Part shown: one piece after another, positions 26,516 through 28,037 of the stretch
How positions within the stretch are numbered: position 1 is the first letter of the stretch
Layout of the letters: every line of letters starts with the position of its first letter
IMG/VR virus record: IMGVR_UViG_3300042156_000043
Location: 1 to 48,967 of that record
DNA: 48,967 nt
DNA from: a virus
Strand: one strand, 5' to 3'
Notes under the pieces: model-generated
What the model saw: only the letters and a program-made list of their open reading frames with translations
Database searches by the model: none
Told to the model about the DNA's origin: nothing
Translations under genes and position numbers: made by a program

Positions 26516-26590
26516 TGGTGGGCTGGGAGGGAATCGAACCCTCGATCTGCCGATTAAAAGTCGGACGCTTTACCGCTAAGCTACCAGCCC
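26516..26590 (-). tRNA. tRNA-Lys (anticodon TTT) with encoded CCA
   Basis: A complete cloverleaf: acceptor GGGCTGG/CCAGCCC (7 bp), D stem GCTT/AAGC, anticodon loop CTTTTAA with anticodon TTT, T arm GAGGG-TTCGATT-CCCTC, discriminator A and an encoded CCA. The outermost anticodon-stem pair is a T-C mismatch and the D loop is short. It lies between the rightward operon and the integrase, next to attP. It may replace a host tRNA gene disrupted on integration, or help late translation. Confidence 0.9.
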
Positions 26591-26897
26591 GTTTTATTTT
26601 GTGCCCCCACGGTGCCCAGCCGTGGGAGCGAACTCCAAGAAACCCTTTATCAACAGCCCGTTAGAAAATTGGGCTCGACGATTAAAAGTCAGAGCGCTAT
26701 GACTTCACGCAGGTACACGGGCCTACCTGCTGCATCCCGATAACGCCTTGTTTTCAGGCTCTTAGCCGGCGCCCGTTATCCCTACCATCACCCAGCACAT
26801 CACGGCGAATCCCGCCCGCTGTGCCCCCAACTTGCCCCCGAGCATATCCCGCGCCCTGTGGGAGCGAGCCCTGGGGGCACACGCCAGAAAGACCACC
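26591..26897. other. Probable attP region with tRNA-fragment core and arm-type repeats
   Basis: About 300 non-coding bases upstream of the integrase. A 12-bp copy of the tRNA anticodon segment (CGATTAAAAGTC) recurs at 26679-26690, followed by AGAGCGCT. CAGCCCGTT occurs at 26585 and 26654. Repeats likely to bind integrase arms are GTGCCCCCA at 26601 and 26821, its inverse TGGGGGCAC at 26872, and GTGGGAGCGA at 26622 and 26858. Core plus flanking arm repeats next to int is the standard attP layout; the exact crossover is unknown. Confidence 0.65.
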
Positions 26898-28037
26898 ATG
26901 CGCCAGCGCCTTACCAAACGTTTCGTCGACGCCATCGAAAAGCCCGCCGCCGAGGAGTGGCACACCGATACGGACGTGCCAGGCTTCTGCCTGCGCGTGA
27001 CGCCCGCCGGGGCCAAGCTGTACGTCGTCCGTTACCGCTACGCCGGGAAGGCCCGCAAACTGCCCATAGGCCGGCACGGGCAGGTCACCGTCGAGCAGGC
27101 TCGCCAGAAAGCCCGGGACGTGTTCGCCGCCTTGGCCGCCGGCCGCGATCCTGCCGTGGGAGCGGGAGACGGACCGACCGTCGCCGAGCTGCGAAAGAAG
27201 TACGAGAAAGAGCACAGCGACCTGCACAAGAAGCCACGCAGCCGGGCCGCCGACCGGGCGCTGTGGAATAACCACATCATCCCAGCCATGGGCCAGAAGT
27301 CGGTGCGCGCTCTCACCCGGGCCGACGTGCTCGAACTGCACATCGCATTGCAGGATAGACCCTATGTCGCAAACCGCGCCCTAGCCCTGATCAGTCACGC
27401 GCTCAAGCTGGCCGAGCTGTGGCACTGGCGAGACGAGGGCAGCAACCCGTGCCGCAATATCAAGCGGTATCGGGAAGAGGAACGCGAGGTCGTTCTAAAT
27501 CCCGAGGAACTGGCCCGGCTACTGGCAGAACTGGACAACACCGAGCGCCAGCGTCTGCGCGGACTGTCCGTCGTGCCGATGGTCCGCCTGCTGCTGCTGA
27601 CCGGATGCCGGCAGTCCGAGATACGCACAGCCCGGTGGGAGTGGGTCGATTTCGAGCGCGGCGTTCTATCCTTGCCCGACAGCAAGGGCGGCAAGAAGGA
27701 CGTCGAGCTGCCTCCCCAGGCCGTAGACATGCTTCGGGCCATGCGCGCCGTCGACAAGGGCGACTGGATCGTCCCGGGCCACGTCCGCAATTCCCACATG
27801 GTCAGTCCTGCCAGGCCGTGGCATGCCATCTGCAAACGGGCCAAGCTGCCCGCCATGCGCCTGCACGACTTGCGCCACACGTACGGCACCATGGCGTCGC
27901 TGAGTGGCTTGTCGTTGCGCGAGGTGGCCGACCTGCTGGGCCACAAGAGCACAGTGTCGACAATGCGCTACGTGAATGCGGCGAATTGGAAAAAGAAGGG
28001 CAACAGCGCGAAGGTGGCAGAGGCCATTTACGCGTAG
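26898..28037 (+). CDS. int: Tyrosine recombinase / integrase (DUF4102 type)
   Basis: A 379-residue integrase with an N-terminal DUF4102 arm-binding domain (PGFCLRVTPAGAKLYVVRYR), a SAM-like core-binding region, and a C-terminal catalytic domain. Catalytic residues are Arg238 (LTGCRQSE), His323 and Arg326 (HDLRHTYG), His349 (LLGHKST) and the nucleophile Tyr358 (MRYVNA). This type usually targets tRNA genes. ATG at 26898 begins the typical MRQRLTKRFVDAIE start; an upstream in-frame ATG lies within the attP repeats and is rejected. Confidence 0.93.
   Translation: MRQRLTKRFVDAIEKPAAEEWHTDTDVPGFCLRVTPAGAKLYVVRYRYAGKARKLPIGRHGQVTVEQARQKARDVFAALAAGRDPAVGAGDGPTVAELRKKYEKEHSDLHKKPRSRAADRALWNNHIIPAMGQKSVRALTRADVLELHIALQDRPYVANRALALISHALKLAELWHWRDEGSNPCRNIKRYREEEREVVLNPEELARLLAELDNTERQRLRGLSVVPMVRLLLLTGCRQSEIRTARWEWVDFERGVLSLPDSKGGKKDVELPPQAVDMLRAMRAVDKGDWIVPGHVRNSHMVSPARPWHAICKRAKLPAMRLHDLRHTYGTMASLSGLSLREVADLLGHKSTVSTMRYVNAANWKKKGNSAKVAEAIYA

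Follow-up and report, generated by a model that had tools for sequence, protein, structure and literature searches.

Most phages with a tyrosine integrase carry the 3' half of a tRNA gene, and the host gene is rebuilt. Another route, tRNA-dependent lysogeny, has been shown in actinobacteriophages (Guerrero-Bustamante & Hatfull 2024, PMC10865867), including mycobacteriophages Fionnbharth (K4), LeBron (L1) and Cain (K6) as well as Gaia (X) and Gordonia phages. Their attP and attB cores are 8-17 bp long and lie in the anticodon region of tRNA-Lys-TTT, Leu-CAA or Ile2-CAT, and the requirement for the carried tRNA was proved in mycobacteriophages by deletion and plasmid tests (PMC10865867). The same authors asked how common tRNA-dependent lysogeny is outside actinobacteriophages. 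In Sinorhizobium meliloti, phage-related sequences make up for an inactivated tRNA by bringing their own isoacceptor (PMC11476347); this case, known at the level of a genome survey, resembles the one proposed here in its Gram-negative host and in the compensation of a lost host tRNA by a phage-borne one.

We analysed a 48,967-base virus record (IMGVR_UViG_3300042156_000043), the whole of which is referred to below as the window. Judged by its gene content (terminase, portal, protease, head, sheath, tape measure, baseplate, RecT-like annealing protein, primase, methyltransferase and integrase), it is a temperate, contractile-tailed phage. Both ends of the contig carry head genes, which is consistent with a circularly permuted, unintegrated genome, and no terminal repeat was found in the window.

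The integrase region of this phage resembles the actinobacteriophage system (PMC10865867) in its tyrosine integrase with arm sites, its short core from an anticodon region, the apparent inability to rebuild a tRNA, and the cognate whole tRNA that it carries. The isotypes Lys-TTT and Leu-CAA and the range of core lengths are likewise common to mycobacteriophages (PMC10865867) and to the integrase family described here. The integrase group differs, however, and the cultured member of the present family, phage ST4, infects Aeromonas. Whereas the tRNA of Fionnbharth is located about 2.8 kb from int, overlaps another gene and has its own promoter (PMC10865867), the tRNA in the window lies 91 bp from the core, has no good promoter of its own that we could detect, and is oriented for use of the host tRNA promoter after integration. 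A known mechanism thus appears to be present in a different integrase family, including phages of Gram-negative bacteria, with these apparent differences: a distance of 84-130 bp between tRNA and attP, an orientation suited to host-promoter capture, and a group I intron in the spare tRNA of two relatives. The anatomy of tRNA-dependent lysogeny recurs within this one family, which counts a cultured Aeromonas phage among its members, spans three tRNA isotypes and has changed design at least three times. This anatomy offers a concrete role for single tRNAs adjoining integrases in temperate phages.

Anatomy of the attP region

A single tRNA was predicted in the whole window by ARAGORN. The features of the region that contains it are as follows, L002 and L003 being contigs of a relative.

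26516-26590, minus strand: complete tRNA-Lys(TTT) of the phage, ending in CCA and proposed as the replacement tRNA (ARAGORN; Rfam RF00005, 75.5 bits)
26600-26617, plus strand: left arm-type repeat TGTGCCCCCACGGTGCCC, between the tRNA and the core, a direct repeat of 26820-26837
26675-26703, plus strand: candidate int promoter, TCGACG - 17 bp - TATGAC, with the core in its spacer; the best score of the locus, equalled by shuffled sequence in 20% of trials and so individually weak
26680-26690, plus strand: attP common core GATTAAAAGTC, antisense of the tRNA-Lys anticodon arm GACTTTTAATC, conserved in L002/L003 and Aeromonas phage ST4
26682-26688, within the core: proposed exchange region, the anticodon loop TTAAAAG
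26820-26837, plus strand: right arm-type repeat TGTGCCCCCAACTTGCCC, between the core and int (repeat search)
26872-26881, minus strand: arm-type repeat in inverted orientation, TGGGGGCACA, adjoining int (10/10 complementary)
26898-28037, plus strand: tyrosine integrase of 379 aa with an arm-binding N-terminal domain (PF00589, E 2.1e-20; PF13356, E 5.9e-19; phrog_1 integrase, E 2e-63)

The first-pass annotation had described a full tRNA-Lys(TTT) with CCA, on which ARAGORN and Rfam agree, and a second copy of its anticodon segment, a 20-mer at 26679-26698 that reads AGCGCTCTGACTTTTAATCG on the minus strand. The minus-strand reading was correct and the second copy is real at 26680-26690, but its conserved part is about 11 bp rather than the 20-mer. 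The exact 11-mer GATTAAAAGTC occurs twice in the window, at 26552 inside the tRNA and at 26680 as a solitary copy, against a chance expectation of 0.01 for the whole window under dinucleotide shuffling, and no shuffle contained two copies. CGATTAAAAGTC recurs at 26679-26690. The extension AGAGCGCT of the 11-mer varies, being ATTGCGCT in L002 and TCATACTA in ST4. As relatives differ in the 8 bases that follow the 11-mer on its right, the shared core is about 11 bp. A search of bacterial genomes for the full 20-mer, suggested as a check, was negative: the 20-mer had no exact match in 2.9 million viral contigs or 84,980 species genomes, which shows only that the core had been drawn too long. In bacterial genomes, GAGCNNNNGACTTTTAATC lay in tRNA-Lys(ttt) in 8 of 9 tested matches, which makes GACTTTTAATC a normal tRNA-Lys(TTT) anticodon arm. 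Homology to tRNA stops at the anticodon arm on both sides of 26680-26690; therefore, by sequence, no functional tRNA could be rebuilt at attL or attR.

The arm-type repeats are of the TGTGCCCCCA type, and the spacing of the two direct copies, 220 bp, is the same in the window and in L002. The solitary core has a direct copy on either side and the tRNA-Lys lies beyond them, an arrangement like that of lambda-type arm sites around a core. Because the fragment lies between repeated arm-type sites of the integrase, it is best read as the attP crossover core, as had been proposed; its location upstream of int and the retention of GATTAAAAGTC across integrases that are 39-84% identical argue for the same assignment.

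Core and tRNA isotype across the integrase family

Relatives that keep the 11-mer core are L002/L003, two IMG/VR contigs of one phage whose integrase is 84% identical to that of the window, and Aeromonas phage ST4 (OR261032), with an integrase 39% identical. ST4 is alike in its attP module but is otherwise a different phage, of 90.6 kb. The window, L002/L003 and ST4 have a common order of tRNA-Lys(ttt) on the minus strand, arm repeat, GATTAAAAGTC, arm repeat and int on the plus strand. The tRNA-Lys genes of the window and L002 are 80% identical, and the anticodon stem is among the differences. In L002, the phage's own tRNA has GGCTTTTAACC while the solitary core is still GACTTTTAATC, and the two match only in the 7-base loop. 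The core is conserved independently of the tRNA, and since that of L002 differs from its own tRNA beyond the loop, it seems to be constrained by an outside target and not by the tRNA that the phage carries.

Further loci were obtained from scans with integrase alignments, in which a whole tRNA was counted when it lay within 1.6 kb upstream of int. Motifs of the integrase catalytic region align among the relatives. Eleven loci of the family have a whole tRNA. It is always encoded on the minus strand, and about 84-130 bp separate it from a solitary core with an anticodon-loop sequence, which is followed by int. The solitary core matches the isotype of the carried tRNA in all 11:

Lys-TTT, core TTAAAAG, four loci: window, L002, ST4, L021
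Leu-CAA, core TTTTGAG, five loci: L018, L019, L025, L028, L051
Lys-CTT, core TTAAGAG, two loci: L044, L046

Over eight non-redundant lineages, a full match of isotype and core arises in only 1 of 280 label arrangements, a figure that serves as a guide and not as a strict probability because the lineages are related. In most loci the solitary core shares 7-10 bp with the phage's own tRNA and the flanking stem differs. Placing the whole-tRNA state on the integrase tree took a minimum of three changes between the half-tRNA and the whole-tRNA design.

One locus is unlike all other members: at L021:2864-4001, the tRNA-Lys(ttt) and solitary core lie 944 bp from int on its upstream side, and other sequence intervenes. 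The integrase scan of genome contigs from species genomes gave one distant match, in Latescibacterota, and no lysogen. Neither a lysogen nor an attL or attR of the window phage or of any whole-tRNA relative was found in viral or genome contigs.

Half-tRNA relatives and the position of the cut

Other members of the family have a half-tRNA at the position of the core, namely the 3' half of tRNA-Arg, tRNA-Lys(CTT) or tRNA-fMet or the 5' half of tRNA-Gly, with isotypes assigned by eye. A tRNA half continuous with the core is present at attP in L045, L022 and L007-L010 and absent from the window and L002. Pseudomonas phage Jeremy (L083) is of the half-tRNA-Arg type and has no whole tRNA.

On megaplasmids, half-tRNA relatives occur in integrated form with both attL and attR recognisable, and two of the four records also have the site in intact form elsewhere. 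Ruegeria TM1040 and Azospirillum Az39 each have a readable attL (next to int) and attR as well as intact tRNA-fMet copies of the site, and Tritonibacter mobilis A3R06 has a matching attL/attR pair. In the tRNA-fMet elements the shared segment is the 3' half of the tRNA, with the anticodon loop TTATGAG as its exact limit. At attR, the upstream region with the promoter and the 5' half of the host gene face the left end of the phage. Integration by the integrases of half-tRNA relatives therefore demonstrably cuts at the anticodon loop. Among the tRNA-fMet-integrated elements, attL and attR are identifiable in L008 (NC_008043.1, 627880-635488, about 7.6 kb) and L007 (NZ_CP110385.1, 188435-197144, about 8.7 kb).

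The classical tRNA-fMet elements of Ruegeria TM1040 and Tritonibacter thus have a homologous integrase and a cut at the anticodon loop, like the family of the window, but with the 3' half they carry, the host tRNA is rebuilt at attR; the window phage has no such half. By this comparison, and with the GACTTTTAATC arm found in tRNA-Lys(TTT) in 8 of 9 matches, the earlier proposal that the target is the anticodon region of a host tRNA-Lys gains support.

Both designs can be compared in sister contigs. L045, with a half-tRNA-Lys(CTT), and L044/L046, with a whole tRNA-Lys(CTT), are near-identical from the loop to int; to the left of the loop, L044/L046 have no 3' half, and the whole tRNA lies outside the left arm site. 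With the two designs side by side, the evolution of tRNA-dependent lysogeny becomes directly testable. In L044 and L046 (3402-3688 in each, minus strand), ARAGORN places an intron of about 211 bp, of group I, in the anticodon loop of the tRNA-Lys(CTT). It matched RF00028 at 38.2 bits (E 2e-8, E-value search), below the gathering score of 50 bits, and Rfam at gathering level reported no intron in L044/L046. A search with the exact intron boundaries gave matches in L044 and L046 only. We speculate that the intron may shield the spare tRNA of these phages from their own integrase.

In the window, an inverted repeat, AAGTCA-N8-TGACTT around GCGCTA (26686-26705), adjoins the core and is common to L002 but not to ST4. 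Its absence from ST4, together with the anticodon-loop cut of the tRNA-fMet elements, led us to reject it as the crossover site.

Proposed mechanism and alternative explanations

Taken from sequence comparison, the region at 26516-28037 is very probably a module for tRNA-dependent lysogeny, in which the core recombines with a host tRNA-Lys(UUU) gene and the carried tRNA replaces the lost function. The integrase would recombine the 11-bp core at 26680-26690 with the anticodon region of the host gene. The anticodon arm being all that phage and host have in common, neither junction would hold a complete tRNA and an essential host gene would be destroyed; the complete tRNA-Lys(UUU) at 26516-26590 would then supply the lost function, allowing lysogens to survive. 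The integrated order would be the host promoter and broken 5' half, about 90 bp, and the intact phage tRNA-Lys on the same strand. Since the phage tRNA is so close to the core and has the orientation in which the host tRNA promoter transcribes, this promoter might drive it after integration. We infer that the window phage integrates in tRNA-Lys, that the host tRNA is lost, and that the carried tRNA is expressed and charged and complements the loss. That the carried tRNA compensates for the disrupted gene had been suggested in the first-pass annotation, and comparison favours this view, as neither side of the core rebuilds a tRNA and isotype equals core in all whole-tRNA loci. Apart from the absence of lysogens among the contigs scanned, two points count against the proposed mechanism. 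E. coli has several tRNA-Lys(UUU) genes, and in hosts of this kind a spare copy would not be strictly needed. The anticodon arm of the carried tRNA matches the core over 12 bp in the window, so that the phage could in principle recombine with itself.

If the host gene were instead rebuilt, as in classical tRNA integration, the identity segment of attP would be the complete tRNA at 26516-26590 and the solitary 11-mer would be incidental. Such reconstruction with a 3' half is usual for tyrosine-integrase phages, and many relatives in this integrase family (L022-L024, L032, L033, L036, L040, L045 and L007-L010) use it. We nevertheless regard it as very unlikely here: the arm-type sites bracket the solitary core and not the tRNA, the half of half-tRNA relatives sits between the arms at precisely the solitary-core position, where L044 and L045 align exactly, and the tRNA has diverged between the window and L002, anticodon stem included, while the core is invariant. 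A role of the phage tRNA in lytic translation or in resistance to host anticodon nucleases, with the fragment as a decayed duplicate of the tRNA, seems very unlikely to explain the locus. A phage tRNA-Lys-TTT is a known answer to the defences PrrC or PARIS, which act on tRNA-Lys-UUU (PMC13015707), and both roles could coexist. However, the limited match and differing flanking stem show that in most loci the fragment does not duplicate the tRNA that the phage carries; it is invariant across distant phages, and the agreement of isotype and core extends to Leu-CAA and Lys-CTT. Nor would a translation helper be expected as a lone tRNA always beside attP and in one orientation.

The solitary segment also coincides with promoter-like sequence. 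A sigma70-like pair directed towards int spans the core in 8 of 9 scanned loci (window, L002, L005, L018, L019, L025, L028 and L051), where it is the candidate with the best score and lies at about the same place relative to the core. The segment might accordingly be mainly the spacer of an int promoter of the TTGACA - 17 bp - TATAAT type, conserved for transcription and not for recombination. This is extremely improbable, as spacers are not usually constrained in sequence but the variants of this one are precisely the anticodon loops that fit the carried isotypes, and the distant core of L021 does without such a promoter.

Returning to tRNA-dependent lysogeny, the position of the core inside the spacer of the candidate int promoter means that integration would separate the -35 and -10 boxes. 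We tentatively suggest, as a possibility that is rather less likely than its converse, that the attP-linked tRNA is a promoter-capture cassette without a promoter of its own: integration would turn the tRNA on, split the int promoter and shut int off, and in L044/L046 the intron would hide the spare tRNA from the phage's own integrase. Capture of the host promoter and shut-off of int by splitting its promoter are both speculative. When a promoter for the phage tRNA was sought between core and tRNA, the best score was matched by shuffled sequence in 45-99% of trials at eight of the nine loci and in 3.5% at the exception, L018.
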